A DNA stretch of 64,000 bases from assembly GCA_022453515.1 (NCBI GenBank), contig JAJNNY010000044.1, positions 186,001 through 250,000 of the forward strand, given 5' to 3'. The translations under genes and the position numbers were made by a program. The DNA comes from Astrocystis sublimbata. Taxonomy: Eukaryota > Ascomycota > Sordariomycetes > Xylariales > Xylariaceae. The notes beneath the pieces were generated by a model that had not been told where the DNA came from, did not search any database, and worked only from the letters and a program-made list of their open reading frames with translations. Of the stretch, positions 44,415-64,000 are shown one piece after another. How positions within the stretch are numbered: position 1 is the stretch's first letter; the number at the start of each line of letters is the position of its first letter.

Positions 44415-46175
44415 ATGGCGGTTCTCTCTCTGTTTCTCTGGGGTTGCCTGTTACCGCCAGTGGCAGTAGCTTTGCAGACGGCGCAGCAACTGTACCGAAA
44501 CTACTGTATCGCGCGCAAGATTGGTGTCCGTTTCCATGTCATCCCCATCAGTCACCTCAACCACTTCTGGATGCTCGTAGACCGCGCCGTTCTCTCGCGT
44601 GTAAGGAGAGTCTTTGGCGAAAGCACTTTCACCCGATATAATTGGATGGGATGGGAACTACCTGACAGGTACTCATCGCATCACGAGCTCGGTGACGCTT
44701 TCATGCTTGTGACGCCCGGTCGCAACTGGTTATATCTCGGACATCCTGACCTCGTGGTTGATGTCGTCCGCAGAAGAGACGACTTCCCTCGCTGTGTCGA
44801 ACTCTCACAGGTCCTCGACGTCTTTGGGCCTTCTGTTGGCAGTGTAAGATTTTTCTCGGCTGCCGTTTTCTGTTGCATATTGAACATAACTTACTCGTGA
44901 CAACAGGTCGAAGGCCAGCGATGGGCAAACCAGAGAAAAATAATGATGTCATGCTTCAACGAACGATATAACGAGACGGTTTGGTCGGAAAGCATCAGTC
45001 AAGCGAACGATATGATCCGGTACTGGCTGGCCCGAGCATCTATTCGAACTACTGCCGATGATGCCCGTACTTTATCGCTCGATGTTCTTTCCAAAGTTGG
45101 CTTTGGGAAGTCGTTCAGCTTCGAGGGCTCCGACGAGGCGTCCTACGCGAAGCCATCAGCAAGCTATAAGAAAAGTTTACAGCTAATTCTGGAGAACTGT
45201 ATTCTTATTATTGCAATGGGTCCTCGCTTCTTTACCAGAATGCCTTGGCTTCCTCGAAAATGGTGTGAGGTCGGAGAAGCCGTGACAGGGTTCCGAAAGT
45301 TCATGACCGACACGTATGAAGCCGAGAAGAGGAGGGTCTCCTCTGGCACATCATCCGCCGCAAGTAACAGCACATTCTTGTCGTCTTTGGCCAAAGCATC
45401 ACTTGCTGCCAAAGATGGCGAGGGCCTTACCGAACAAGAGATCTATGGCAACATATTCGTTATTAACTTTGCTGGCCACGATACTTCGGCACACGTTTTT
45501 ACGTTTGCCGTATATTTCCTCGCTGCCAACCCTCAAGTACAAGACTGGTTGTCTGAAGAGCTGAAACTAGTACTCGGGAACTCGTCTCCAGACCAATGGG
45601 ACTACAGACTCTTCCCTCGTCTCAAGCGTTGCCTGGCCGTGCTGTACGAAACCATTCGTCTCTATACTCCTGTTCCTGTCACCAAGTGGACAAAAGACAA
45701 GACACAGACATTGATCGTCGGCGACAAGGCTCTTGTTCTGCCACCCAACACTATGATGTGCTTGGCTTATTCATCTTTACAAACGGACCCTAGATGGTGG
45801 GGTGACGACTCCCTGACCTGGCGGCCTTCGCGTTTTATCCGGTCCACCGCCAAGTACAGCCAGAAGGTCGACAACCAGTATCCAGATGCCTCTCTCTCGG
45901 AAGAGGAGTTCATCGAGCCAAGGCGTGGAACGTTTGTTGGCTGGTCCGAAGGCACCCGCGATTGTCCCGGGCGTAAATTCTCTCAGGTCGAGTTTGTAGC
46001 AACTGTGGCGTCGCTCTTTCGGGACTACATCGTCGCCCCTGTGCCATTCAAGGGCGAAACAGATGAGGTGTCACGGAAACGTGTGCTTGATTTGATCAAG
46101 AACGACTCAGGCATGGTTTTGTTGCAACAAATGCTGCATCCGGAGCGAGCACCCCTTGTCTGGAGTAAAAGGTAA
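44415..46175 (+). CDS. Cytochrome P450 monooxygenase
   Basis: Exons 44415-44843 and 44907-46175 join in phase 0 (donor GTAAGA, acceptor CAACAG) to give 565 residues. The ATG at 44415 begins an N-terminal membrane anchor (MAVLSLFLWGCLLPPVAVAL), typical of ER-bound microsomal P450s. Hallmarks are present: the C-helix WxxxR-like QRWANQRK, the I-helix oxygen-binding AGHDTS (about residues 332-337), the K-helix ExxR (YETIR, about 391-394), the PERF-like region WRPSRF and the heme-binding FVGWSEGTRDCPG with the cysteine ligand at about residue 496. The enzyme should use NADPH-P450 reductase to oxidise a hydrophobic substrate. The substrate cannot be told from sequence. No polyketide or peptide synthase is in the window, so a secondary-metabolite cluster is not supported. 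No defect is visible. Confidence 0.92.
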
Positions 46176-47068
46176 TCAACTGTGACTGCGATAGTCGAAT
46201 TTGACCACTTATAACGAGGAAAATTAGCGCTCATCGGACTCGTGATTTCTCTATATAAGAGCTGGGGAGCTCCGAACTCATTGGGTAACGCCCGAGACCA
46301 AATTCAGTTAAATTGGCGACACTTTACCATTTGCTTCTACCAATCAATTACCTAAATCCCTAACTACTGTACTATTTTTTTGCTCCGATGTAGATATATC
46401 ATGGCGCGCAGCCTGATCTCAACATTCGCCAACGTTGACGTAATATGCAGAGATAAATTGGCTCAAAATACCAAGGCAGGCTGTGCATGCACATTGCAGC
46501 GGCTACTGGGTTTCATTCGGTGATTCTGTGACGCTGGCTGCATCTCGCCGGCATGTGCAACAATAAGGTGGCGGGTACGACTCTGACCGCATGGGACTAG
46601 AATGCAGGCCAGGAAGTGCAATATTGATAACTCGGTACGAAGGTGTCTGCTGACTCATCGTGGCGGTGCGGCGGTCTCGCCCCTCTTCGTAGCCGCCGGG
46701 CCTCCGTTTTGCCATCGGCGCGTCGACCCCACTCGGGCACCGTATTGAGAGAAACGGAACGGTCGAACCCACCCGAGGCATGCTGCTCCTCCTGGCCCGA
46801 ACGATGCCGCTTCTACTTAGGCCACCCCCCTTCCACCCCTTCCCGGAACATCCTGGGCCCACCAACTGATCCTTCAATCGAGCCGCCGAGGGCGCGCTAG
46901 GAACCAACAATGGGTCTTGAGGCTATGGGACAATCCCTCCATGCCCAATTCTCCTCCGCGCTTGTGATGAGGGACCTCTTTCTGATTTATATAAAGCCAG
47001 GAGCTGCGGTTCACTATTTCCTGCTTTTTCTATGGACCTTGTGAACCTTCTTTCAATCGTTCTCGAAG
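46176..47068. other. Spacer upstream of the recombinase gene
   Basis: Overlapping frames of about 85-135 codons on both strands in a GC-rich patch (46503-46910) look like chance. If the recombinase belongs to a Starship-type element its 5' end would be expected here, but I could not identify a target-site repeat. Confidence 0.4.
46988..46995 (+). promoter_or_regulatory. TATA box of the recombinase gene
   Basis: TATATAAA lies about 80 bp upstream of the ATG at 47069. Confidence 0.5.
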
Positions 47069-49020
47069 ATGGCGACCAGTTCTATTGAGCCTGTGCCCTC
47101 TAAGCAGCATTTCACTGCTCTGCCCTCCCGCGAAGAGAGCCGGACGATAGCCCAGAAGCATTTCGAAGAATACGTTGTGCGACCTATCGAAGACAAACCT
47201 TTTGTAGCCGAAGATACTCAGAAAGAACGAGATCGGCTCTGGGGGCGTTGGGCCCAGTAAGCTTTGCTCTTCGAGCTTCCTTATCTTGTTGCAATTTCTT
47301 ATTACGGCTGGTTCGTCTGTACCAATGTACTAATAAGATTCCACACAGACATTGCAATGATATCGGAGTTGATAATCAAAGATCATGGCTCAATTTTGTG
47401 TTACGCCCTCAAGACTCCGACACCCAGGCTCCGTTTAGATCATTTCTTCGCACCTATGTCGAACTCTCGGTTCAGAAACGGCCCGTGCTCAATGATCGCG
47501 AATATGAATACAAGAAGACATTGAACTCGGCTTTCAGTCTAACTGAGGTGTGGCGAAGGCTTGTAGCTTCTGCAGACCACGAGGTAATGAAAAAACGGAG
47601 AAGGGACGAGCCTGCTCAAGCCGACATATTCAGGCTAAGGTGGATCAGTAAAGATGAGGGCAGCCGAGAGGGCCCTGCCTATCTGTTGGTAAAGGTATTT
47701 CCAATCCAACATACTATTGGACCAATGTTAAGCGAGATTAGTGGCTCTCACCGTCGAGATAGTATTGCTAACATATTGTCTTGGTACAGTGGATATTTAC
47801 TGAGCTGGCTGTCGAAATAGGCTTGGATACAAACCCGACCTACCAAAAGATTGCCATGACAGGCACTGATGTAGGCGTGACCCTCCAGACGCTGTGGTCG
47901 AGAGCAAACGATATACCTTGCAACCCAGAGACCAGGGTGTCTTTCCACGCCATCATTCTACTGGCTGCTATTGGCGGTTTTCGGCCAGGTACGCTATTAA
48001 ATTTGACCTATTCCCAATTCCATGTAACCGTGGTGCGTGATCCGACCAATTCGGCCAGAACCCAGATTGTCGTGACGATAAATATCAAAAGAAACAAAAT
48101 CAAGGAAACAGCCAAGACCAGCCGCGCTCGGAACGGTGGCAGGTAAGTAAAGTGATATTTTTCTAGTCTTATGAGCATCGCTAACTCGCCTGCTAGCATT
48201 GGATTTTCCATCACCTTGATCCCAAACTGCACGTTCTGCCTCGCTAGCCTAATTTTGACACGGGGCGTCCAAACAAATGGCTTTGACCCCGACTTTACGA
48301 CGGTTGATCAGATATTCGACCGTCCGAATCTAGAGCACGTGGATTTTGTACCTCTTCGATGGAAGACAGATATGCTGGAGGAAAAGATCTTTCCCATGTC
48401 CTACAAGACGCTCAACGACCTGTGGCACCGTGTGCTCTTAGTTACCGGTGCCCGCGAGGACGCGCGCCTTTACAGCCTACGAGTAGGCACAGGTGCGAAT
48501 CTGGACGGTACGCTCGCCTTACGCTCTAGCTTCCTTCAAATCTGCAAACGATTCAGTTTACTAATACCGTTTGCTAGGTGTCCTTTCTGATGCCTTGCGC
48601 AATTACGTTCTCTCCCACACAACCCACGTGTTCGAATCGAGCTATCAGTCGTTCCGCGTACGCGCCGACTTGATGCAATTAGCATTCAAGGCCGACGCAG
48701 GAAATCACAGCCAGCTTTTTGCGAGACTCTGTGACGTTTCTTTAGGTAGAGACACAAATGCCCCAGCCAATATCAGCGTAGAGGAAGAACGTCAGTTTGA
48801 AGAACGGAAAGACATAACCGAGCTTCGCAATGCTATTAAAAAGACAATCGATCCAAAAGAGCGAGCACGTCTTCGTACAAATCTGAACAATCTTTTCAAG
48901 ACGCTTGGCCAGCTGAAACTACAAGATAACCGGACCAAATATTTTGAGCAAGTCGAGCCCAAGGACACGCAACTGACAAGATCTGCGCGCCTAACGAGAA
49001 AGAAACTCCTTTACCACTAG
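47069..49020 (+). CDS. DUF3435 (captain-type) tyrosine recombinase, probably truncated by a frameshift
   Basis: Five exons (47069-47256, 47349-47694, 47790-48142, 48197-48507, 48578-49020) join with exact phases and encode 546 residues. DUF3435 proteins are tyrosine recombinases, best known as the captains that mobilise Starship elements by cutting and joining DNA in the nucleus. The catalytic pattern is complete: R243 in AAIGGFRPGTLLNL; YSLR with Y388 and R391; and H413, H416 and nucleophile Y422 in LRNYVLSHTTHVFESSYQS, preceded by the family signature LSDALRN. The N-terminal 178 residues correspond to the DNA-binding, SAM-like part. Translation stops at LTRKKLLYH, but near 48950 coding sense passes to the minus-one frame (open from 48948) and continues into the zinc-finger/chromodomain frame. 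The C-terminal 20-odd residues here are therefore probably out of frame. The recombinase core itself is undamaged. Confidence 0.85.
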
Positions 49021-50675
49021 TTATTGCGAGGATCTCTCGGTCGTTATGTGCTTTTGTCGAGGAGCCGGCCGCAGACCACACGCGCCGCTCAAGATATTAT
49101 ATGTCCTTTCTCCTGGCATACCTCACTAACGCACCACCGACCGTCTCGGATGAGCTGGAATTAAAGCAAGAAAAGAAGGCCTGGGCTGACCCCAGTCCTG
49201 CCTCACAGGATGGACTATCTCGCTGTCTTCTCTGTAAAAAGCTATACGCCAGTCGGAGCGCCTTAACACGACATTACAAGGCTTTTCACACCGACGATAC
49301 AACCTTTAGTCGGCCGTTCTCATGCCCCAAGTGTCAGTTAATAGGACTAGAGGAGACGCTGATCGAGGGTGCTCGCCAATGGAGTAACCATGTTGAAAGG
49401 GTGCACGGAAAAGTACATACGCCCAATTGGAACCCTCAACAGAACCCATCAGCACGGCCTTGCTGTCTCTGCGCTTCTGAGCTCGCCACCGAAGCCGGGC
49501 TAATCAGCCATGTGAATCGCCACGCTCAAAGCGTATCTCGCCAATGGCCCACCACTTGCCAAATTTGCCCTAACGTCTCCTTTGACGACGTGTGGGCGTG
49601 GCTTCGGCATTTGAAAGCTGGTCACATACCGTCTGCACAGATATGCCCTATATGCGGCTATATCTGCTCTACGTCGAGCGGGTTGACAAGGCATTTCACC
49701 TCAAGTCACACCCTAGACTTTCAATGTTCTTTCCCTTGCTCTATCTGCGAACGAGAAGGTGCCGATGCTATTCATACCATCGACGGGTTCTCATCCTGGC
49801 ATGTACATCTAATGGCAGCTCATAGGGAATGGGCTTATCTAGGCTGGAGTGACAGCAGCCAATACCTACTGACATACCCGAAAAGAGGTGCCAAGGAAGA
49901 TACTACATCGAACCGGCCGTCGATCAACCCTGTTCAAAATGAAACAACTTCGAGCCAACATTGCATACACGAAGGTGAGCAGCACCAATACACTTCGACT
50001 ACACCAAACTTGCCTGGGAGCCCATCTTCGTGTCCTGGATTAACCACGGCAACGAGTGGATCGTCAGACTCACCGCTGACGAAAGCCGCGTATACATCAA
50101 ACAGCGATGTTTTCGAACAAAACTTTCAGCTTGAACATGGTGGATATGATGGGATGAAATCACAAGCAGACACGTTTCGTGTCTTTCACACCGAGTCAGA
50201 AATTGCATCCGTTCCCATGGAATTGGTCGACCCTGCGCTTCGTGATGATCACCAAGATCTGACGCACCCGATGGAAGACGTTTACAAATCTACAACTGAT
50301 CTGAGCTTCGACTTCCAACAAACCGACTCTATGGATGTCGATAAACATCACGCGGTTGATTGCATACTCGAGCGTTGGAATAAGAACCTTTTCCTCTTGC
50401 GATGGCTAGAAGACGGAAGCTATTGGTGGGTTCAACGGAAGGACATCAATGCTGACTTGGTTCGGACCTTTGAAGAGAATTATACAGGAATTCATCTCGG
50501 AGTGGACAAGGTATTGGCCACCCGGAAGCGACGCGGAAAGATCGAGTACCGTATTCGCTGGTTTGGTTATCCAGTGGAGGAGGATACGTGGGTGTCAGAG
50601 AAACAGATGAGCCCGGAGCTGGTAAAGAAACATAAACCAACAAAGGCTGCAGTAAAGAGGCGAAAGAGATATTGA
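48948..50675 (+). CDS. C2H2 zinc-finger and tandem chromodomain protein, probably the C-terminal half of the recombinase
   Basis: The frame is open from 48948. The first ATG is at 49101, giving 524 residues, but coding-like sequence (DKICAPNEKETPLPL, AFVEEPAADHTRRSRYY) precedes it. Six C2H2-type fingers follow at about residues 42-63, 75-102, 121-141, 153-175, 182-203 and 213-241 (for example CLLCKKLYASRSALTRHYKAFH, CPICGYICSTSSGLTRHFTSSH). After a disordered acidic linker comes a degenerate chromodomain-like segment (VDCILERWNKNLFLLRWLED) and a canonical chromodomain (VDKVLATRKRRGKIEYRIRW, FGYPVEEDTW), ending in a basic tail. Chromodomains bind methylated histone H3, and retroelement integrases use them to target heterochromatin. 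Starting exactly where the DUF3435 frame fails, this is best read as the same gene split by an indel. A separate gene starting at 49101 is the alternative. Confidence 0.8.
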   Translation, partial: ASRAQGHATDKICAPNEKETPLPLVIARISRSLCAFVEEPAADHTRRSRYYMSFLLAYLTNAPPTVSDELELKQEKKAWADPSPASQDGLSRCLLCKKLYASRSALTRHYKAFHTDDTTFSRPFSCPKCQLIGLEETLIEGARQWSNHVERVHGKVHTPNWNPQQNPSARPCCLCASELATEAGLISHVNRHAQSVSRQWPTTCQICPNVSFDDVWAWLRHLKAGHIPSAQICPICGYICSTSSGLTRHFTSSHTLDFQCSFPCSICEREGADAIHTIDGFSSWHVHLMAAHREWAYLGWSDSSQYLLTYPKRGAKEDTTSNRPSINPVQNETTSSQHCIHEGEQHQYTSTTPNLPGSPSSCPGLTTATSGSSDSPLTKAAYTSNSDVFEQNFQLEHGGYDGMKSQADTFRVFHTESEIASVPMELVDPALRDDHQDLTHPMEDVYKSTTDLSFDFQQTDSMDVDKHHAVDCILERWNKNLFLLRWLEDGSYWWVQRKDINADLVRTFEENYTGIHLGVDKVLATRKRRGKIEYRIRWFGYPVEEDTWVSEKQMSPELVKKHKPTKAAVKRRKRY

Positions 50676-51174
50676 GCAGGTGTTATAGACTAATTATACG
50701 AAGGGCCGGTTAGGCAGGCTAAGTAGAGCCACGGGCTGAGTAGCGTCAAGGGATCCAAGGATTCCCACGCATAAAACGATGTTCAGTTACATAATCCGAG
50801 ATTGTGTAATGCTCTCGAAGGATTTACCCACAGAGGACGAGTGAGCAGTATGGGAAGTGCTCCTCTATATCGTCGTAGTCGCACAGACGAGTCGAGCAAT
50901 CAGGGCAGATGATGGATAATAGATGAAGGAAAAACTATATTTATAAATACAGATATCTCCTGTGTGAATAGTTCTGGTATGTCCTTTATTATAGCGATGT
51001 ATATGTGTTTGGCGAGGTACATTTTATTCCTAGTCGTATTCTCCTGCAGTCACGGTGACAGAATTTCGCTATTATGGCACGTCAGGCTGCTAGGATCTTA
51101 CCTGTCAAACATTGAGCAGTACGTTGGTGAATCTTATGTACGTAAGATAACACACAATAACGACAGTCGTAGGT
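50676..51174. other. Spacer between the recombinase and the CYTH pseudogene
   Basis: Convergent 3' regions. No gene seen. Confidence 0.5.
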
Positions 51175-52092
51175 CTAAGCAAGCGAGCTTTTCCACATCT
51201 CATATACTGTCAGCTTGCCGACGGGTGTTGGAGTCGTTGCGAACAGCTTCGAGTTCGCCATCATGAAGTCCTTCCGCTCTCCCATCCTCAGCGCCGCCTT
51301 CTCCACACCCTCGGTCGCAAACTATTGAAATAGTTCTACTTCCCCGATAACATGGGTGAAGGCAGATTCGGTGGGTGCATTATTCGCAGCCATAGCTCTG
51401 GCCTCGGTGACCTCGTCCATCACAATCGTCATTTTCGCCGAGGGTTTCTTGCCGTCGGCCAGCCGTGCGACCTCCCACGCTAGGCGCTTCGTTCGGAGGT
51501 CAGTGACTACTTGCAAGTCCTCCAGTCTGGTATTTGCCCCCGTAATCCGCAGCACTTCATCTGATACCTTATTTTTCCCATCGATCTCGACGAATTCTGA
51601 ATTGTTGTAATGGCCACCGAGTCTCAACTTGGCATTCCACTGTGGCTTCGGACTGTGCAGGTAAATAACGGTTAGCGACTGAGCCCATAGTAAAGCGAAT
51701 CATGAATGGATTAATCTGAATTCACAATTACCCTACTACCCCACAAGTCTATCACCTGTTTTAGATCAGGGCGATCAAATGCAGATTCCGGATACTTACC
51801 TCGCATCTTGAGCTAGCACAACGTCGACTTTAGCGGTGGCGTCGTGATCGTGATTGTTTTGCGGATTGGGCGGGCCGAGAAGGAAGGAATGAGCCTGGCG
51901 CTGTCGTACCCAGAGCCCTAGGGTGCCAAGTCGACCAATCTGGGTGTCGTAGTAAATGTCAGGGATTGCGTCCAGTCCTCCGACAAGAACACGGAGGCGA
52001 ACTTGGGACCGAGGTTAAACTTGCTCGACTTCCACCTTGGATACAATACGTGCGAGCCGCGAAACACCGAGTGCTGGCCCTGTTGGATACAT
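51175..52092 (-). pseudogene. Decayed CYTH-domain (triphosphate tunnel metalloenzyme, thiamine-triphosphatase-like) gene
   Basis: The minus-strand reading shows CYTH landmarks in order: SKVEVEQ then KFNLGPKFASVFLS (the ExExK start), DIYYDTQIGRLGTLGLWVRQRQ, an intact phase-2 intron (51653-51799, GTAAGT...CACAG), PKPQWNAKLRLGGHYNNSEFVEI, TKRLAWEV and HVIGEVELFQ. CYTH enzymes hydrolyse triphosphates such as thiamine triphosphate inside a beta-tunnel using the ExExK acids, basic residues and Mg2+. Lesions are a frameshift between EVEQ and KFNL at the catalytic ExExK motif, a second frameshift before LDAIPDIYYD, and a CAG-like to TAG nonsense after VELFQ. The original reading continues past the nonsense codon (VEKAALRMGERKDF, PVGKLTVYEMWK) to a stop at 51175. 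The gene lies at the edge of the AT-rich block. Assembly error could explain the indels but less easily the nonsense codon. Confidence 0.75.
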
Positions 52093-52795
52093 TGTACAGT
52101 TTGCTGAAATTCTCAGATCATGAACGGCTGGTGAAACGAGGGTGATTGATCTTCCTCGATGGTTGAGATAAAGAAAGGAAGGTTCTGATTTCAGGTTCAA
52201 ACACTGACTGTTTGTTGTAAGTGTTCTACATATTGTGTTTGTTTATTAGAAGGTAGGTCCTGATTAACATGTATAACCAAAGTACTAACAAACGCTCCAA
52301 ATTACCTATCTAGGTCACATAATTAAAACCTATCAAACACAAAAAACACATAGCAATCAGAAAAAAAAAAGAAAAAGAAAAAGAGAAGAGGACCGCCCTA
52401 GCAGTATAATTACCTGTCTTTAAGTATGTGAGGCCCGTTAGTTTGGTACGTACTTTTAAAAGTACTAACCATATCAGTTATATATACTAGGCCATATACT
52501 ACTTGCCCACCTAGCAGCATATTCAAGGTAGATAAATATAAATATAACTATCAAATAATTTACTTTTAATATTAACTAATGAAAAAAAGGGTTAAAAAAA
52601 AGGTAAGAAGCCGAATCGTGGTTACATAATCAAATAGTGCTTTATTAAAGTAGCCTAAAGCTAGTCGCCCGTTCACCAGTTACTCTACTTATAGTCCCGG
52701 GGAAAAGAGGGAGAGCCACAAATAACGATCCGGCCCTCCCAGGAATAAAGAAATACCCAAGGACATCTGAACCTACCCATTACAACACCTCCTTA

Positions 52796-54132
52796 TTATA
52801 ATAACTCGTCAGATATAGAGCCACATCCCGCCACATCTTTTTTGACCACTTCCTTCGTCCAGTTATACATGCCCCCACGCTGGTTAAAGGCGTCTTGGTC
52901 CCAGTAAACTTCGCTCAATGCTTGTTACACTCTAACGTCTAGAATCGATCTTAACTGCTTTTCGGCCCTAGTACCCTTGTTAAGAAAGCAGAGGTACTCA
53001 TCAAGGATAAGGTAACTAGAAGCCATGTGTTACAAGGGCAGAGTATTCTAGGCTTGGGAATAGCTTCATATTCCAAATAATCCAATAATTATCTATAGCG
53101 TCAAAGGGTATTAACCTTCTAAGTCTGTAAGAGAGAGATAGAGACCCAGCCGGCCTTATATACATAAAGTGTCTTTGTATTCGTAGTACCCCGCTCCAAA
53201 GGGTGGTCCGTATAACACTATGAGAGTGTTTAGCTTAGGCATAACTAAAACCACGTGTTGGTGTCTATCGCAGAATGCCTTGAACTGGTCGTCCGAAATG
53301 AGAAGCTCCTGGGTATTTCGCTTCCGTTTAGCTAGATGGACATCCTCCGGGGAATCGTTCTCGCCTTTGACGTAAAAAACTTGAAAGACCTTCCGACGGA
53401 AAGGTTCGAGTCCTTACACCTTGTTCGCTATATCTTTTTCCTAATTGTGGATACAGATAACCGTGTTTAACTCGAGTTTGATATTAAACTTCCGGTACTA
53501 GTCGCAGATCCTAAAAAGCTGCTTAATATTATCGCCGGTACTACAACCAATATTATTGTTCGTTTTCTCGTTGAAACTATCGTAGCTAATACTTAGGACG
53601 TCCACCCACCGGCTATACCGTTCTATCCACCCCTTGCGAATCTTTGTTCCGTTACTAATAATGCTAACGCTTTCGAGCCCGAGTTCCTTTTTATAGAAGC
53701 GACAAAGTGTCGCTAGCCGGTCCGAGTAGAGAAAGGGTTCGCCTCTAACGAAATTAATTTAACGCACTATAGTACCCAAGAATTAGTAATTACTACTTAA
53801 ACTAGGACTTTAAAATCTTTTTTAACCTAGTAACGTATTAAAGAGGCACTAAGCTAAGTCTATTAACGATTCTAGTGGCAAGCAGGGCAGGAATATGGGA
53901 TTTCTATTAGCTATTTATTACCTGCCGCCTTAAGCAGCCTAAGCCCATACTTTATCTGATCTTTAGAGGCAGTATATAAAGATTTCTCGGTATAGAAACA
54001 GAAGCCACACTCCTTGTTATATTTACAAATAAAATAATAGTTAACTGAGACCGGAACGACGATTTTACGGTAGTTGTTCCAATGGACCAGATAAACCGCG
54101 AAACTCACCAGAACAGCGTATAAGGCTGACAT
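52796..54132 (-). pseudogene. RIP-decayed viperin-type radical-SAM gene
   Basis: Viperin (RSAD2 family) converts CTP or other NTPs to chain-terminating 3'-deoxy-3',4'-didehydro nucleotides. The reading starts at an ATG (54132) with a hydrophobic N-terminus (MSALYAVLVSFAVYLVHW), then VPVSVNYYF and the cluster motif. In the CX3CX2C motif the first cysteine is now Tyr (YNKECGFCFYT). An intron (53767-53921, donor GTAATA, acceptor CTATAG) follows LLKAA. Next come INFVRGEPFLYSDRLATLCR (the GGE SAM motif now RGE), KKELGLESVSIISNG, VDVLSISYDSFNEKT, KVFQVFYVKGENDSPED and DDQFKAFCDRHQHV. A roughly 200-nt interruption comes next, then MASSYLILDEYLCFLNKGT, SILDVRV, ALSEVYWDQDAFNQRGGMYN and WTK. At least five in-frame stops (two at conserved Trp positions) and the motif losses make it inactive. 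Confidence 0.85.
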
Positions 54133-54861
54133 AATTAAAGTCCAACGGAAAAAAAAGAGGCTAAATAGTATTAAAGTATTTATAATCCTAAAGACTTTAA
54201 AAAAACTGTTAAAAAAAGTAAAGGCTAGAGGAGTTAAATAATGCTAAATAAACGGCGACCTTTAAAGAATCAATAGAGATATTTAATAAGTCTGGCAGGC
54301 AGCGGAAGGCAACGTGGGAGAATGAACGTTAGTAGAAGTTTCTAAAAGCAACCAAAATAAAATAGCTGTGGGTCTTATAGCCATAGCTACATAGGGTACG
54401 TTTATAGTATAAAACGCGTTATTTGTTCCTATTGCTTCGTGGACTTTCCACTAAAAGAAACGTTGCTAGCTAGAACAATAATTATATGAACTATACGTAA
54501 TTTAATAACAATTCTAAGCAATTCTTAGCAAACATTTATATACCTGAGCCCTTCCCTGTGGTTCATAAAAGCACTGCCTAGGCTCGCGGTATTAGGTCTT
54601 TAAGTATTAGTTTAGTACTTTCTCCCTATAATCTATTAACCCTATTTACGGGAGGGTTAAACTCGCGGTATATATTAGTTAAATCCTGACTATACCTTTA
54701 CTATACCCTGGTTAAACAGTTATTATAACAAAAAGTAAAACACTAATAATAATACACCTGCTTAAATCATTTTTCTATTATCAAACTGAGTTTAACCACC
54801 CTAAAACATATATTAGATCCATTTAAAAACTACCCTTAGAAAATCCGAAATAGCGAGCACT
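54133..54861. promoter_or_regulatory. Shared divergent promoter region of the viperin and kinase relics
   Basis: 729 bp separate the ATG of the viperin relic (minus) from the ATG of the kinase relic (plus). No coding sense was seen, so the pair would have been divergently transcribed from here. The DNA is strongly AT-mutated and no factor site can be trusted. Confidence 0.4.
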
Positions 54862-55470
54862 ATGCAGTCAGGTAACAATAGGATTGTCCTTGTCCTCGGC
54901 CCCCCTAGGAAGCAACAAAAGTACTGTTTGCAAAAGGGCCGTCGAATTGTTGAAGCAACCTTTCCACTATTACCTCTCAGTGGGAGACCTTCTACGTAAG
55001 ATCTGCGAGCATAAGACAGTCTATAACGAGAACAAAAATAATTATAACAAAATCCGCGATTTTTTACGAAACAATAAGCTGCTGCCTGCTAAGGTACTCA
55101 TTCCTATTTTTAAGCGCAAGATAGACTGATTACTATCTGGCTGGGTCGATACTTGGTTGATTAATAGATTTCCGCGCAATATAGAGCAGTTACTTGTGTT
55201 CGAAGAGAAGGTAAGAATATAAAACAATATACGAAGGAATACCGCTTAGGACAAAAATACTAACATGTTTATTAGATTGGTAAGCCGATAAAGGTTATCG
55301 TTTTCGAATATAGTTGCGATACTACGAAACGCTGATATCTAAACCGAGCTAAAAAGCGGATAGATAGTAATAAACGTTTTAATAAACGGTATAGCGATTA
55401 TATTAAGAATATAGAGGATATTTAGAAACATTATAAAATTATAGGTACTATAGAATTAGTATATAGTTAA
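54862..55470 (+). pseudogene. RIP-decayed nucleoside-monophosphate kinase (adenylate/UMP-CMP kinase family)
   Basis: From an ATG at 54862 the reading MQSGNNRIVLVLGPP runs into a short frameshift, then GSNKSTVCKRAVELL: the Walker A loop, with one glycine changed to Asn. It continues with HYYLSVGDLLRKICEHKT (NMP-binding SxGDLLR), DFLRNNKLLPAKVLIPIFKR, a stop, and LINRFPRNIEQLLVFEEK (the family DGFPR motif now NRFPR). An intact-looking 65-nt intron follows (55211-55275, GTAAGA, TACTAAC, ATTAG), then IGKPIKVIVFEYSCDTTKR, a stop, and YLNRAKKRIDSNKRFNKRYS with DYIKNIEDI...KHYK. These enzymes phosphorylate NMPs. Beside viperin the expected role is supplying or charging the nucleotide substrate or product, as with CMPK2 next to RSAD2 in vertebrates. 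Substrate choice cannot be read. Three or more stops plus motif changes make it a relic. Confidence 0.8.
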
Positions 55471-56599
55471 ACTCTTTGGACGAAGCTATTATTACTAATT
55501 ATTTAAATAGGTCCCTAGGGATGGAAATAAAGATAAATGCTTGGAGGAATTTATAGCGGCTTTACTTACGGTGCTTAGAGACTAAATAGGGCATAATACG
55601 AGCTAGAGTTATACTAACTTACAGAGATTCTAGAATAGATTAATAAGCTAGTAAGAGTGCGAATATAACAGCCTGTAAGCTATGAAGCAAGCTAGAGGAG
55701 CCGATCATGCTTGTGTACTATAGGCGGGCAGGCAGGAATTTAAAGCTTAACGTTTGCTTAGCGTGCCTATTTTGCTCCTTTATTTTAGCGCTATTACCTT
55801 TAATAACCAGGTCCATTCCTTTTGCCGGCAGAAAAAATACATACCGCTTTGGCGCTACTTTAATAACGTAGCTTAATTATATAAATCTTTTATGCCAGTA
55901 GAAAAAAAGGTACCATACCTACTAATCCCTGCGCAGCCCCCCTACATGTGCCAAGGTTTGATTTTACTATATAAATTTCACTTTCTAGGATCTCCTTGTT
56001 TCCTAATTTCCTTTTAATAAACTACGATACTTAGTACTTTAAGCCTAATCTTTTTTATTCTCTATTCCTAATTACACTTAGGGTAGTATTTATTATAAAA
56101 CTAGTTATTATTTGTTTTAACCAGTATAGCGATATATATATGTTTTAACGAAATATATTTTATTTTTAGTTATGTTTTTCTCTAGCTACTATAATATATT
56201 TTCTCGATAAATCGTTTATATAGACCTAGCTACTATAGCGCGTCGGGCCGCTCAAGTTTTGTAGGGCGGTTTCTAGGTAACTTGTGAGGCGGGATGTATG
56301 TAGGCTTGCCTCGCTACTGCCTCGGTACCTCGAGGCGTACCTTCTTTGTAACAAACAATAATAGCTTTCGATAGCGTCCCCCTTCCCCCCCCCGGAATAT
56401 CAACATCAACATTTTCGTATTAAAAGCTGCTTCTATACTAACTAGGCTATTTTAAAAACTATTAATTAGTTCATCTGGTTAGTTACTACTATATTTCTCG
56501 CTTTCGTTATTCCCAGATGCCCTATATCGCGTACCTTTATTCCTCTGCTATAGTTTTCGCTGTTTACGGTTTCGCATCTCCAGACAACAGTATTGCGCA
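55471..56599. other. AT-rich interval, unassigned repeats
   Basis: Two similar segments (about 55835-55885 and 55890-55930, each GCCRGYAGAAAAAA followed by an ATACCGCT/ATACCTACT word) suggest a mutated repeat. A GC-richer patch at 56265-56345 may be a less mutated fragment. No gene identified. Confidence 0.4.
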
Positions 56600-58020
56600 A
56601 AGTTACCTCCTTCTACAGCCATCTATTTGATTTTTCGTTAACCAGAAACCGAACAAACGCGCCTTACTGTGAATATCCCAACGATGTACGATAACCCTAG
56701 CGAGAGCTCTGCTCTCTAGGTCGAACCTGGATTCCGTTGCTAGAGCTCCCACCCTCTCAGCAACTTAAGGCTCGTCTGCGCGAGCAAGGCGTCGATAGGC
56801 ATACCATCCTTACCTATCCCGACGAGTCGGAGCTGTACGAAAGTCTCGGTATTAAAACATTAAAGCATAAAAATATTTTATATTATACCTGCTGTGAGCT
56901 CTGCCAATAAAGCTAGTCGTACCAACGGTACCTATCTAATCCCTTTGCTCCGAAGAACATACCGACTCGCCGACCGTACTATCCCGTCGACCCTGTTAGT
57001 ATTTCTGTCGTTTCTCCGTTTGTACTAGGACTTGTACCTACCGCGGCATCTCCCGCGCCCAACGAGTCTGCCAATCGTTAGAAGCGATACATGGCCCCGA
57101 ATCCAGTCTTGGGAGAAATATAACCGCTTATACCTTTTACTACCGATATTACTATTACGAAAAAAAACAACGCTCCTGCCCTTATCCAATTAACAGACTC
57201 GTAATATAGTATTACTACTATCTATCGCCAGGATTCTACTAATATCTATAGTACAAAGCGGAAAAACAAGGAAGATTATAACTAGTCTCGTACGAAACAT
57301 ATAACCATCGAAGTAATCGAGTTCTCCGATAACGATAGCGATAATAATAGCGATAATAATAGCGATAATAATAGCGACGATATCCAGGCATCGCCTTAAT
57401 AACTACAATCTATAGATAGTATTCCTGATAGACCTGCGAGTCGTGGGTTGGACACCGAATTCAGCGGTTGATATACAAATCGCCACATTACCGAGTACGA
57501 CTGGGCAAAAGTGTGTAAGATGTTCTAGTGCCCTATATCTATCACGAGTCTAAAGCCTCCTGGGCTCGTCGTAAAGATCGCCGCCTACCAGCTATACGCG
57601 ATATGGTAGATACTGCCTGGGCGATGCGATGGGCCTTAGCAGGACCATCGAGGTCGTGTCGACCTTAGCCATGTTTGCTATGATTAAGGCCAACCATAAG
57701 GAAGTGCTCCGCTTCTGGAAAGATGGAGTTGCGGCGGAAGGCCGACTATACTTACCTTAACGGCAGACGGAATGCCATAGCCGTTGTCCCAGCTAGTCCG
57801 GATCGCCATACCCTACAGAGTATATATGTGTTAGATCTGGCGATACCTATAAGATTGCGACGCGCATGCCTTCGCTACTAACCATCTGCGTCGTACCACT
57901 ATATACAATCTCTCTATACTCGCCCGCTTTATCGATCTATTACGCAACATAGCGTTACGTAGTATATTAACCTTATTAAACGCTTTATAAAAAAAAAGGC
58001 CCTAACCTGTTCGGTCTACG
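56600..58020 (+). pseudogene. Relic of a SNF2-type helicase gene (N-terminal and motif-I region)
   Basis: Broken frames on the plus strand read as one long protein. They give SQQLKARLREQGVDRHTI, LTYPDESELYESLGIKT, an acidic low-complexity stretch VIEFSDNDSDNNSDNNSDNN, then LDTEFSG and ITEYDWAKVCKMF. PPGLVVKIAAYQLYAIW (Q-motif-like, 'LPGL...YQ') and the ATPase motif I appear as DAMGLSRTIEVVSTLAMFAM, where the family has DxMGLGKT. KANHKEVLRFWKDGV follows. The Gly to Ser change in motif I is G-to-A; Lys to Arg is not RIP-type. SNF2 ATPases of this kind are common in subtelomeric or repeat-rich fungal DNA. Several stops and at least one frameshift, between the Q-motif region and motif I, make it non-functional. 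The C-terminal helicase lobe was not recognised. Confidence 0.6.
57339..57375 (+). repeat. 12-bp tandem repeat inside the helicase relic
   Basis: GCGATAATAATA is repeated three times. In the relic's frame each unit encodes Ser-Asp-Asn-Asn, as expected for a disordered acidic linker. Confidence 0.6.
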
Positions 58021-58224
58021 AAAAATAGTTAGACCTTTGTTTCTTTTACTTATTACGGAGTTTAATAATATACTTAATTAGCTAATATCGCTATAAGCCC
58101 AGAATTGCGATTAAGGCAGCTATAAATAAGAATAGTAAGCAGTCCTATCTTAGTTATCGAAAACGTAGCTCAGCTACTGCTTTAAAAAACGCCCCTATAC
58201 TACTACCAGCTAGCACAAAAAAAA

Positions 58225-58990
58225 CCAGCCCGTACGATCGGGCCTTTTAATAGCCGCTTATCGATTATAGGATTTACCCCGATAATTATAAATATCCTAA
58301 CAGGCAAGAATTACTTTTGCCTAAAAACTTAGAAAAAATTATACAAATAATAGTAAAACCGCGGTGTGCTCTATCCCTTTTGCTTTTTAGCTAAAAAGAC
58401 TTTAAGCAATTTAAACGAAAAAATACACGTGCTCGCCAAAAATAGCAAACTATATCCAACGTAATATCTATTATCAAGGGCGAGGTAAGGGATAGCAGCT
58501 GTATTTCTAGGCAAGTCCCATTTACAAACCTAAAAAACCCAACGGTTGATTTACTTATACCTAGTAGTCTCGATTAGTATTATAGCGCCCGACCTAAATA
58601 GCTTGATTAAAGAGTTCAAACATAGCTAGGAAAACATATTTTACTGTTTATACAAAATGATTTTTTTATCGCGCCTAAATTTTTTCTAACTATAAAAAGC
58701 CCAAAAGGAACCCTAGCGGTAGCTAAAAACCAAGCGTATTATAATAGCGCGCTAAAAACAAGGGGCATAAGCAGTCTTTAGATATATAGTAACCCAGGAT
58801 TAGACCCTAGCAATAAGGCATATATATTAATATCGACATACTATAGGGGTACTTTAAAGATATAATCCCACTTACTAACTACCTCTTATTGTTCAATTGC
58901 GTTTAATAGTTCTAGAACAAATAAGCGCCCTTAACCGTTTGTTCGCTACGGTACATATCTTAAATACAAGCTCTACGTAACTTTATACGA
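58225..58990 (+). pseudogene. Relic of a DUF7924-like fungal protein
   Basis: The plus-strand reading in one main frame gives PYDRAF, then IDYRIYPDNYKYPNRQELLL, DFKQFKRKNTRARQK, VISIIKGEVRDSSCISRQ, PFTNLKNPTVDLLIPSS, YYSARPK, LGKHILLFIQNDFFIAPKFF, TIKSPKGTLAVAKNQAYYNS and ALKTRGISSLQ. I recognise this order as the fungal DUF7924 type: the YPD.Y start, the YYGARPEQL centre, the APNFFLxVKxPxG core, and the ALGARG region. The family is common in filamentous fungi, often in variable regions. Its function is not established, though the core resembles a restriction-endonuclease-like fold (inference). Around eight stops, mostly TAG/TAA at positions expected for Gln, Trp or Arg, make it inactive. Confidence 0.6.
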
Positions 58991-60999
58991 TACTACCCTT
59001 TGCGAAGTACTTAGGGCCCAGAAAGTAACGAATTTCTGCAGATATAATCCTTAATACAGATCAAGATTCTAGTCCCTTCCAACCTTTTAACCAGCTATAT
59101 TTCTCGTTAAGTCTATCCAAATATACGTTACCTAAATAGATATCCCCTGCTATATCTTCGACAGCGGGTACTAGCGTACATAGTATAGCTTCTTTCGAAA
59201 AAGCGTCTTTTACCTTATATATTCCTCCTTTTTGTTCGCCCTCGGTACGAATCAGATCTACCTAGTTTAGGATATCGGGAATATCATGGATAAACCTGCT
59301 AGTATCTCAACGAAACCCATATTAAATATCCTAGTTACCTTTAGTAAGCCATACCTAATAAAGATAGTCTCGAAAGCTCCCCTACTATAGAGAGTGCCAA
59401 AGTTCTAATTCGACCTTTTGGATTTTAGTAGCTTTAAGCAGGGGCTAGGTAATAGTAGATCAATTTAATTAAAGATTATACTGATACTATAAAATCTCGC
59501 TTTGTAGGATATTTTTATTCTCTAAATACGTTCTTGCCTTAGCTTTATCTAAGAAAAATTAAGGTACTCCAGATTAAGCAACTATAACAAGATTAGGCTT
59601 CGACACTAAACCATAGCTATAACGTTTCTCAAGTATCTCTAGGAACCGCTCGATCCAACCGAATAAAGCTAGATCGCTAAGAAAGAAAACACCTAACTAC
59701 TATAAACCGAGGCGTAGCCTACAAAGGAGAAAGGTTTTCGCGATAGTCTCCGCATAAAGCTTAAGGATCGGTAGAACAGCATGGCCAGGGCAGCTAAGAA
59801 TGCTACCATTAAGGGTATTAGAGGCCCCACGCTCCCTTGGGTTGCCGGTACAAGTCCGAATAAAGTGCAAAGCTTAATTAGTAGTACTATAGCCTCCTCG
59901 GCCGAAAGAGGCGCTTCTTCTAGATCGTAGGAAATCCGATGCCCAGAGACAAGTACGATATCGGCGTTTAGGTACACCGCCTATACCGGAAAAGGGCCTT
60001 TTACAAACCATCCTATAGAAGGAGTAAAAACCGCCGAAAGCCACCGAACAAGCCTATCCGACGCGCCTACGAGATCAACAACATTATCGGTCGCTATTGT
60101 AACAAGGACTATTTATTAGAATAATTATATATACCGAAAGTTCCGGGCTTAAAACTCGAATAGTTAAACAAAAAAGATATAAAACTAGTAAAAAAATAAT
60201 AATAAAAATCCTTTGGGTTAAGGAAGTTAAAGTTGGGATATTAGTACCAAGCATCTCAAAGGTTTATTAAAGCCTAAAAAAAACCGTTATTAGGTAGAGC
60301 ATAACTGGGTATTCCAATCGTTACTACTACTACACCCAAGGTAAAAAGGGCTCGATACTTACTATACAGCCTAGCCCCATAAAACTTTACTCCTTAGGAA
60401 CAGTTAAAGTAATACAGGGATATCCTTTATAATAATAGAAAGGTCGTATAATATAGAGGGGTAACAGCCTGCCGGGAGGTTACAAGCACGTCCAAAAAGC
60501 CGCAACCACGTTTTTTAGCCACTATAATAAACCTGTTCGATCTGTACCGAGTTTAGGATGAGAGGGTTATTTTTAGTATCGATCAAAATATCGCAGGAGC
60601 TATTATCCGAAGTTGTGGCACAAGATTAGACTTAGCTATCATCTCTAGACGGTAGTTCATCGCTGCTACAGCAAACCTTTTTAGCGGTAGAAACAGCCTC
60701 GAGTACATTTTAGCCTATCTCTATCCAGGTCTAGATTTCGTACAGCCGGCTAGCTCGGCTTTCCATATCATATAGCAGAGTTATTAGTACGCGACGCGTT
60801 AGCAAAATAAGAGCGAATAAGTAAACACAGTGTTGCTTAGCTTCCCTACAAGCTTGGACAAAGGTTTAACATACCTTTATTAAAAGTAGTACAGTATAGG
60901 ATCCTGTAGGCACTCGCTAACCGACCTTATTACTAAGCCAAAATTCAGATCGACTACTACAAAAGGAATGATTTATTAGCTATACAAGAAAAAACGCTA
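58991..60999. other. AT-rich interval, unassigned
   Basis: A minus-strand frame (59693-59977) with a less mutated composition reads EEAPLSAEEAIVLLIKLCTL and a hydrophobic stretch. A further minus-strand stretch at about 60700-60870 reads QACREAKQHCVYLF and LYDMESRASRLYEI. Both look like gene remains but no family was recognised. Confidence 0.35.
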
Positions 61000-61600
61000 T
61001 CTTTATATCCTTTTATTCCTTGTTTAGTTCTATGTATAGCTGGTTATGTGACCAGGACGCCCGGGTTTCTTTTAGCATACTATGGTTCCATAGTCCGTCC
61101 TATTATTATCTTCCTCTTATTATTATAACGAACTCTATCCAGTTAAAGTTGCCCAAGTCTTCATTCCAAAGCACCGGGTTTCCCGTATTGTAATCCCGGT
61201 AGATCCAGGCCTAACGCGCCAGATCCTATCGCTTTTATAAGTTTATTACCGAATCCCACTTAGTCCACTCGGCCTTAGCCCCTTCGTCGGCCCTCTTCTT
61301 ACCGCCTTTTCCCGCCTATTCTGCTCTTCGGCTTTTCTTGGCTAACCCTGGACTCCGGTTATACTGCTCCCCGCCGCAGCATCAGCAACATCAAGTCTAT
61401 CAAACTAATCCTCTAGGTCGTCGTTAGGATAATCGATATCGTTGGCTCGAAATGCTAGATAATCTAGAAGATACTTATGTAGCATGAGAGGTTGGGCTGC
61501 CCTGGCTTTATCAGGAAAGTATTTCTTTCCGCATGCACAAGGTTAAAAGCATATCTTCCAGCCTCCCACCGCACCGCTATACATCTAAGCCTAACATATC
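61000..61600 (-). pseudogene. Unidentified gene relic
   Basis: The minus strand reads with protein character in pieces: CACGKKYFPDKARAAQPLML, HKYLLDYLAFRANDIDYPND and an acidic DDLED; then a basic Arg/Lys-rich region; then AWIYRDYNTGNPVLWNEDLG, NFNWIEFV and LWNHSMLKETRASWSHNQ. Stops (TAG/TAA) and frame changes interrupt it. GC content is higher than in the surroundings, which suggests incomplete mutation. No family could be named. Confidence 0.35.
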
Positions 61601-63429
61601 TCAAAAAGCTTTTTACATTTCCTACATTTCGATTCGCTTACTCTAGCATATTCATTATTCGCGTATCCACAGCGGGAACAAGTACCTTTCCGCCCAGAAC
61701 TAGTTAATATAAGTACGAAGGGCTTATAAAGCTTTACCCCTCCTACGTTCGAATATAATTTTTTAGACAAAGATATTTAAGTAATACTATTAGAATATGT
61801 TTATAAGATAAATTAATCAACCACTCTGTTTGTGTTTTATCGTTCCATTCACCCTTATATACGTCTTCCTAATATCCCTGGCCTTTTATCTCGACTTTAC
61901 ATATGCTTGATCTATATATTGCAAATAGTCCTTAGAGATCTTAAGAATCAGATGAGCGACTCTACACATACCGTGCTACAAGGAGTAGTATCGCAAATAT
62001 GGCAAGGGCTCTTATAAAGGGCTTAGAATCAATCTATTTAACTAATAACTCTCTAAGGGTCTCCAGGTCCGTAGTTACCTCCCTTCCCTTATTAGTAAAA
62101 TTTATAGCCTATCTCTGCCCAACGGGTCTTCATATAATTCTATTTTTTAGCTATAGGTATCGTTATTATCAGGTCTCTTTACAAAAAAGTCCAGCGCGCA
62201 TAACTAATAACATCCAATAACCTAAACCCTATTAGCTTATCACACTCAATAGTTCCCTCGGTTTTAATCCCAGGTTCATCTAAGCGCGAATAGCAAAAAG
62301 GGGAGGGGTAAATCTAAATAACAGTATACCGAACATAAAATAAAAAAACTAAATATATTAACAGTCTTAGGATATCTTCTAGTCGTTCCTAGTTCTGCCC
62401 CGTCATAACATTTCAAACGCCGCTTTGGTCTAAGGAGAAATTTCCGATAGAATTAGCCACTAGAGGTGCCGTGTCTATATTGGGCCACAAGAATCGATAA
62501 TATAAGCTATAGACGTTGTCCTAATTAACATCATACTCTCCCTATATCTAACCACTCGTTTATAGTTCCTTAGCTATTAATCTAAATATTTCATACATCT
62601 ATTATATTAGTTACTACTAAGATTTCTATCTCTAATTAGTAATAGGAGCCCCTAAAAGCCTCCTTAACGATCGCCCGCTATTATTCATTACCTATAAATC
62701 AAAAACCTCTAACATACTGCCTATACTTCTCAAGTAATATATAGCAAGATTATTACAGTTTAGTAGTGCTATTAAGAATTTATAGGGAACTAGGATATAA
62801 ATATGTTCTTTCTTATAATACTAACATAGAGAAACCCCCCCCCCCCCCCAACTGTCATCACTTTATAACAAGCGTTGTATAACCGAATAGCATTGTTTTC
62901 GTACGGCATCACAACATACGAAGTTCACACTCGATCCCTACGTTCATAGCTAGTCGTTTATCACTTGTGCCCCTCTAATACGGTAATATATAAGGAGATT
63001 TATTAGCATATCAGCATTATACTCGACTTTTTACTGCTTTGTGGGAAAGTGGAAAGACCTTCGTAATTAAAAAATAGTATCTATATCTCTAATTAGTATT
63101 TCTTAGAGTATTTTATATTTAGGAATCTTATAGTTTTGTTAGTTAATTATACTATTTAAAAAAGTATCACACTCGGTCTTTTAAAAAAACATTCGTTTGC
63201 TATTTATAAGTATAAGTACATAAAGCAAATTTAACCTTACTATATCGTGTTTATACCTTAAAAAAAGCACAAACTCCTCTTAAAACCGTATATAAAGTCT
63301 CCTTTACACCTCTATATAATCTTAGACTTTACTATTTAAGCCTCTACAAACTATCCTCGAATTCTTATGCTTCTACACTCTTAATATAAACGTCTTTTCT
63401 ATAATCACAACACTCTTTCGAAAGTTTCA
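61601..63429. other. AT-rich interval, no gene recognised
   Basis: Dense TA-rich sequence with stops in all frames. A run of 15 C at 62835-62849 stands out. Confidence 0.45.
62835..62849. repeat. Homopolymer of 15 C
   Basis: An uninterrupted poly-C tract in otherwise AT-rich DNA. It may be a true homopolymer or a sequencing or assembly weak point. Confidence 0.7.
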
Positions 63430-63930
63430 TCGGCGCCTTACCAAACAAGCTATCATTAAAGGCATACAGCAGGCTATCATTATTTCTGGTTTTACCTATA
63501 TTAGCAAATCGACCCTAGCCCAAAATTTAACCCTCAAAAGTTATTCGGTCATAGACCTCGACTCTTCGAAGTTCTCACATCTGGCTAACAAACAAAAAAG
63601 TCCCAATTTCAAACGATATTACCGAGATACTATCCTACAAGCTACCAATAGCAAAACGATTATCTTAATTTCTACTCACAGCAAAATACGGAACAAACTC
63701 CAGAGTCTTAGGGTTCACTTCTCATTAGTTATACCTCGCCAACACTTAAAAAATAAATAGCTGTAACGTTTAGAAAACAAAAGCTCTAGCAACCTAGTCC
63801 CTAACTTCAATAAACAATAGGATACATTTATTACCAGCTATACAAGCCAACAAAGCTGCGACATCGTACTCCTCGGCCACGGAGAATACCTATCGGACAT
63901 CGTACCCAGAATCATCAACCGCTCCCACCC
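63430..63930 (+). pseudogene. Relic of a P-loop kinase-like NTPase
   Basis: The plus-strand reading gives QQAIIISGFTYISKSTLAQN, whose end is a Walker A loop with its glycines lost: the family form is GFxGxGKST, here GFTYISKST. It continues SYSVIDLDSSKF (an acidic Asp-x-Asp strand typical of kinase-fold P-loop proteins), FKRYYRDTILQA, KTIILISTHSKIRNKL, FSLVIPRQHLKNK, then after stops CDIVLLGHGEYLSDIVPRII. Strand order (Walker A, VIDLD, ILISTH, LVIP) matches small P-loop kinase-like proteins found in fungi, bacteria and phages. The substrate is unknown. The start codon was not located. Gly to Ser in the loop and several TAG/TAA codons fit RIP. Confidence 0.6.
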
Positions 63931-64000
63931 GGTATAGAGTTCTTCTGCTAAAGGGGTCAGGGGTTACTAAAACAGTTAGTAGCTCAACAATAGGGATAAA

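Follow-up and report, generated by a model that had tools for sequence, protein, structure and literature searches.

A second, decayed viperin and NMP kinase gene pair in the genome of Astrocystis sublimbata

Known pairings of viperin with nucleotide kinases

In vertebrates, the viperin gene RSAD2 adjoins, in inverted orientation, the gene of a nucleotide kinase, CMPK2, which is described as aiding the making of ddhCTP (PMC10058120, PMC8801973). In bacteria, a CMPK2-like kinase gene is reported to adjoin 15% of the viperin genes (PMC11249213). As regards fungi, an enzyme of the viperin family was reported to dehydrate CTP and UTP (PMC9642334). The main text of that study, which deals with the radical-SAM nucleotide dehydratase (SAND) TtRSAD2 of Thielavia terrestris, mentions no kinase partner, nor does the word kinase appear in it (PMC9642334). 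No report of a fungal viperin-kinase pair was found in the literature searched by title and by the beginning of the abstract.

The locus considered here lies in a stretch of 64,000 nucleotides of the A. sublimbata genome (hereafter the window). An initial annotation made from the letters alone read two neighbouring head-to-head genes as a viperin and an NMP kinase, both mutated to relics. The analysis reported below shows that in these relics A. sublimbata has a second viperin-NMP kinase pair, the genes of which are transcribed divergently. Relatives were collected with two viperin searches, which returned 1648 and 1941 proteins and of which the best 120 each were taken (127 distinct proteins), and with one kinase search, which returned 49 proteins, all taken.

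The viperin relic

The broken viperin gene, of the same enzyme family as TtRSAD2, occupies positions 52796-54168 of the minus strand, head to head with the kinase relic. It is made up of the following parts:

53914-54168, minus strand: N-terminal part with the [4Fe-4S] cluster motif, which reads YNKECGFC where relatives have CNKECGFC and the like.
53759-53913, minus strand: intron-like interruption between '..LLKAAG' and 'INF..GEPFL', with GT after GCAG.
53219-53758, minus strand: radical SAM core, INFVRGEPFL .. ELGLESVSIISNG .. GENDSPEDVHLAKRKRN, with 3 internal stops.
53027-53218, minus strand: likely 192-bp insertion in the viperin frame, flanked by ATA/ATG.
52796-53026, minus strand: C-terminal part, MASSYLILDEYLCFLNKG .. 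RGGMYNWTK, with 1 internal stop.

Family models for viperin/SAND are matched along most of this length. Three pieces, 53498-53758 (E 7.8e-20), 53911-54243 (E 6.2e-11) and 53156-53413 (E 1.5e-8), match TIGR04278, and two pieces match NF038283; the pieces 52796-52924 and 52951-53088, each taken alone, gave no family match. Solved viperins from the PDB are matched by the piece 53498-53758 with E 3.9e-20. The intact relative used as a reference, F5B18DRAFT_665753 of Nemania serpens (P0067), aligns from residue 2 to residue 324 in three stretches, at window positions 53887-54168, 53219-53758 and 52802-53038. Its residues 2-95 are found in the first of these (contig C129, positions 239887-240168) with E 1.1e-33, while the radical SAM core is 68% identical (E 2.2e-77) and the C-terminal part 77% identical (E 1.8e-21). 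The family assignment made initially is thus upheld both by the three TIGR04278 matches and by the alignment of P0067.

The reading frame carries 4 internal stops, and GGEP is changed to RGEP. In the cluster motif CxxxCxxC, kept in 122 of the 127 viperin relatives among the matches listed, the first Cys has become Tyr. Because this motif is broken, the gene should be regarded as a relic and not as an active member of the family.

The two interruptions of the frame appear to differ in nature. At the position of the intron-like stretch 53759-53913, P0067 is the only one of the 127 listed relatives whose model is also interrupted (AAGSK then PFLYP, the relic having AAGNK); the segment AGM[RK]KINFAGGEPF runs uninterrupted in 102 of the 127 relatives among the matches listed. 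The stretch 53027-53218 has a partial copy elsewhere in the genome (C51:18723-18843, 90% over 121 bp), and an edge of that match falls exactly on its own edge at 53218. Since the match stops precisely there, 53027-53218 is read, from the sequence, as most likely an insertion rather than an intron. Its ends, GTGTTA..TAACAC, are complementary at 9 of 12 end positions, a figure for which the chance level was not computed. With such inverted-repeat-like ends, the 192-bp stretch is possibly a miniature DNA transposon.

The kinase relic

A broken NMP kinase of the UMP-CMP/adenylate type, nearly full length, lies on the plus strand at 54862-55461:

54862-55210, plus strand: exon 1, with a P-loop altered by a frame change and by losses of Gly, a single internal stop in the main frame, and DGFPR changed to NRFPR.
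55211-55275, plus strand: intron, still recognisable (GTAAGA .. TACTAAC .. TTATTAG), at the same position as an intron of the intact kinase.
55276-55461, plus strand: exon 2, with two internal stops; the matched stretch is 55270-55455.

In the family-model search, the piece 54854-55129 matches TIGR01359 (E 6.9e-6) and PF13207 (E 1.3e-4), both under the curated cut-offs, a match to PF00406 likewise stays below its cut-off, and no kinase was recognised in the frame from 54817. The intact relatives P0161, a kinase of Xylaria arbuscula, and P0128, the intact kinase of A. sublimbata, pass the cut-off of PF00406, though not that of TIGR01359. In direct comparison with P0161, exon 1 is 72% identical over 104 aa (E 3.5e-53) and exon 2 is 63% identical over 62 aa (E 2.2e-24), so that the kinase proposed in the initial annotation is confirmed and its second exon located. 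The proposal that introns were still recognisable holds for 55211-55275, and 53759-53913 is intron-like; it does not extend to 53027-53218, where the match on C51 points to the likely insertion.

Three internal stops interrupt the kinase relic, its frame changes across the P-loop, and it lacks both an intact P-loop (GxxxxGK[GS]T) and the DGFPR motif. Of the 49 relatives, 48 have the P-loop and all have DG[FY]PR. In 44 of the 49, an Asn directly follows DG[FY]PR, a residue which we take to be typical of pyrimidine-specific UMP-CMP kinases. By its family-model matches the fungal partner kinase is assigned to the UMP-CMP/adenylate kinase family. The likeness to RSAD2-CMPK2 noted in the initial annotation therefore stands as one of arrangement and not of kinase descent, vertebrate CMPK2 being a member of the thymidylate kinase family.

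The two relics are divergent and both broken, as was originally described, and the pair itself makes neither enzyme.

RIP-type damage of the locus

The relic pair lies within a larger mutated block:

52200-64000, no strand: AT-rich RIP-mutated block, with a composite RIP index above 0 in every 1-kb bin from 52001.

The switch to AT-rich sequence at about 52.2 kb of the window is abrupt. Upstream of it the composite RIP index is negative in 50 of 52 1-kb bins, the remaining two, 1001-2000 (0.04) and 23001-24000 (0.20), being slightly positive; downstream, the block extends to about 252 kb of C129, followed by a mosaic up to the contig end. The relic locus has a TA/AT ratio of 1.46, a (CpA+TpG)/(ApC+GpT) index of 0.67 and a GC content of 0.38, that is, a raised TpA/ApT, a lowered second index and AT-richness, as in a RIP signature. 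The locus of the intact A. sublimbata pair on contig C124, with values of 0.72, 1.31 and 0.49, respectively, is devoid of such a signature. When relic and intact pair are compared, CpA, the context favoured by RIP, appears only mildly preferred: 62 of 195 sites are changed there, vs. 31 of 147, 43 of 167 and 45 of 175 in the other contexts. Mismatches of the viperin relic to P0067 are reachable by C>T/G>A in 68% of cases and by the reverse changes in 17%; in an intact control, the median shares were 16% and 10%. The damage to the pair thus appears, from its sequence, to be RIP-type mutation of the whole AT-rich block together with the likely insertion.

A six-frame Pfam scan of window positions 55400-64000 found no domain. 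Within this part, 57905-58864 is a RIP-mutated member of a dispersed family, whose best copy lies at C88:677775-678734 (72%), with more matches on C147, C24 and C134. The neighbourhood of the C88 copy codes for a fungal protein kinase (PF17667) and, weakly, for DUF7924.

The intact pair of the same genome

A. sublimbata possesses an intact viperin (P0001, identical to F4808DRAFT_409787) and an intact kinase (P0128), arranged divergently on C124 with about 1.5 kb between the start codons. The intact and the relic pair have in common both protein families, the divergent layout and the position of a kinase intron. They differ in that the C124 genes are without breaks and the C124 viperin has an extra intron between CNKE and CAFC, inside the cluster motif, which is missing from the relic; nor are the relics sister to the C124 genes. 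The initial annotation suggested that the fungus had once carried a complete system and lost it. This part of the proposal fails, because the intact divergent pair persists on C124 and the system as such was not lost by A. sublimbata.

The viperin search of the genome gave two loci, plus a weak match on C46 (E 0.04). Beyond the two loci of the paired kinase, the kinase search of the genome detected NMP kinases of more distant kinship on C163 and on C106, together with one weak match (E 0.15) on C51. Flanking the C124 pair are domains of a ribonuclease III (L003, 468-1178) and of an acyl-CoA-binding protein (L003, 6906-7229).

Pairing of viperin and kinase in other Xylariales

Of the 49 kinases, 26 are found on a contig equal in size to that of a viperin (57 of the 127 viperins being compared), and in 25 of these 26 matches the species name is the same. 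For six more kinases, the species also has a viperin in the list, but on a contig of another size (X. curta, Jackrogersella minutella, X. bambusicola, Ustulina deusta, X. arbuscula and Meristemomyces frigidus); some of these cases may represent second assemblies or strains. Wherever both partners are listed under one tag prefix (4 of 4 cases), the locus tags are consecutive: RRF57_012443/444, O1611_g451/g450, NUW58_g803/g802 and PG986_000199/000200. In both pairs of the A. sublimbata genome the two genes are adjacent and divergent. These comparisons indicate that the pairing of viperin with the kinase is conserved across many Xylariales. The adjacency in the window is not due to chance, as proposed from the outset, because kinases of the same family accompany viperins in many Xylariales. 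The search for intact adjacent homologues that the initial annotation recommended has yielded the C124 pair and the four consecutive tag pairs of other fungi.

When prokaryotic genomes were scanned for the surroundings of viperin genes, 88 pattern matches led to only 2 loci. With the fungal kinases as queries, no convincing neighbour was detected within 4 kb in the two bacterial loci; the sole match, 20 residues in L033 (E 0.009), was not taken as a neighbouring kinase. Prokaryotic viperin loci differ from the fungal pair in not consisting of intron-bearing eukaryotic genes.

Descent of the relic pair

Careful trees were built from single-piece relic rows together with 30 of the 127 viperins and 22 of the 49 kinases. 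The viperin relic groups with P0067 of N. serpens (support 100/99) and the kinase relic with P0161 of X. arbuscula (100/98). The same groupings appear in wider trees, built by a quick method from 95 viperins and 42 kinases (98 and 98), and trees with joined relic rows agree with those from single pieces. The viperin relic row has a long branch (1.19), which was flagged by the tree program, while the end branches of P0067 (0.052) and P0161 (0.016) are very short. Forcing the viperin relic together with the other N. serpens viperin, P0023, gave a borderline AU result (p 0.055).

When residues reachable by RIP are counted with the identical ones, the viperin relic reaches 91.1% with P0067, the next value among the 127 viperins listed being 82.5%, and the kinase relic reaches 89.0% with P0161, the next of the 49 being 80.9%. 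For this measure the pieces were aligned separately, and a protein was counted for a piece only if the comparison covered at least 60% of it; this left 109, 127 and 124 viperins for the viperin pieces, and 49 and 41 kinases for those of the kinase. P0067 and P0161, the nearest proteins to the two relics, are thus about 90% identical to them once RIP-type changes are allowed; they differ from the relics in belonging to other species, in having no internal stops, and in having been seen here as single proteins rather than as a pair. After these two, the next-nearest are viperins of U. deusta and X. bambusicola and kinases of X. bambusicola. As a separate observation, the viperins P0020 (Xylaria arbuscula) and P0024 (Xylaria venustula) group with the Hypoxylon/Apiospora type and not with most Xylaria copies, a placement that may reflect a further transfer or old paralogy.

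Weighing the explanations

We consider it reasonably probable that a viperin-kinase module moved between Xylariaceae and was then inactivated by RIP in A. sublimbata; the argument for transfer between species rests on the protein trees and on a mutated relic row with a long, flagged branch. The main rival assumes a single ancient duplication in Xylariaceae and no transfer at all: most species would since have lost the second pair, a few (N. serpens, X. arbuscula) would have retained it, and in A. sublimbata it would have decayed through RIP. The grouping of the relics with second copies and not with their own intact counterparts agrees with such a paralogy, and repeated loss would fit the patchy presence too. 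It requires, however, that the second copies evolve far more slowly: about 90% identity before RIP has to be set against the 72.7% between P0001 and P0023, the native-looking N. serpens viperin, for the same two species. Moreover, the nearest other rows are those of U. deusta and X. bambusicola, and the clade lies among, not outside, the Xylaria-type viperins. We therefore regard ancient paralogy as unlikely, though still to be taken seriously. A recent copying of the C124 pair within the genome, followed by RIP of the copy, was rejected and seems to us very improbable. The shared genome and divergent arrangement would suit it, as would the excess of 182 C>T/G>A changes over 79 reverse transitions in 1329 aligned DNA columns of relic and intact pair, but the same columns contain 210 transversions, and the AU test rejects the relics being forced together with their own intact copies (p 0.0104 for the viperin and 4.9e-6 for the kinase). 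The C124 locus, moreover, is free of a RIP signature, and its CNKE/CAFC viperin intron has no counterpart in the relic.

A domain scan of five of the six frames of window positions 46000-52001 revealed a further gene that has to be considered:

47925-50675 (domain 47925-48978), plus strand: DUF3435 (PF11917) gene, about 2-4 kb from the relic pair, with weak C2H2 matches and a chromodomain match following the domain.

We take DUF3435 to be the Starship-captain-type domain that drives Starship elements, and the gene could be such a captain with the relics and the RIP block as cargo. It is one of at least three DUF3435 loci of the genome (the others being on C136 and C187), is located near the relics and points towards them. 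Against this, neither the ends of an element nor a target-site duplication or an empty site were demonstrated in this one genome, the gene sits in bins lacking a RIP signature, and, to judge from its chromodomain match and its weak C2H2 matches, it may be just a normal gene of the host; cargo of a Starship is accordingly a rather improbable description of the locus. Accidental adjacency or spurious alignments might be invoked on the grounds that the kinase piece alone falls under the curated cut-offs and that two viperin pieces alone have no family match. This explanation is barely credible, given that matches to the kinase family reach E-values as low as 1e-53, that the relic shares a kinase intron position with the intact kinase, that the genome contains an intact pair laid out in the same way, and that the partners have consecutive locus tags in other genera.

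Proposed course of events and significance

According to the transfer reading, the pair would have entered the A. sublimbata lineage from a Xylaria-like relative, the donor being close to Xylaria bambusicola and Ustulina deusta. The pair would have landed in or beside a repeat-rich region and gained a small insertion, whereupon RIP (C-to-T and G-to-A) may have riddled it until both enzymes were dead. In a living module, as judged by the protein family and by the vertebrate and bacterial precedent, the UMP-CMP-type kinase would raise UMP and CMP towards UTP and CTP and, on the same grounds, would be coupled to viperin. The latter, a radical-SAM nucleotide dehydratase, would convert CTP and UTP to ddh-nucleotides, which would terminate viral RNA synthesis. 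A common divergent promoter would switch both genes on together. A broader proposal, that a complete antiviral viperin-kinase module spreads horizontally as a unit among Xylariaceae and is destroyed after arrival by RIP, is put forward tentatively and may well prove too strong. If it is true, RIP, itself a defence of the genome, wipes out a virus defence on its arrival, and the fossil pair links two genes that were found here only singly in two other species.

The pairing of viperin with a nucleotide kinase is known in vertebrates and bacteria, as described in the sources cited (PMC10058120, PMC8801973, PMC11249213), and here it appears to be conserved across many Xylariales. Since the kinase of Xylariales belongs to the UMP-CMP/adenylate kinase family, this suggests that a supplier of pyrimidine nucleotides was joined to viperin more than once. 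Through the intact pair of A. sublimbata, a fungal viperin pathway becomes directly testable. In general, the dead second pair suggests that fungal genomes gain and lose viperin-kinase modules and that RIP can be a means of their removal.
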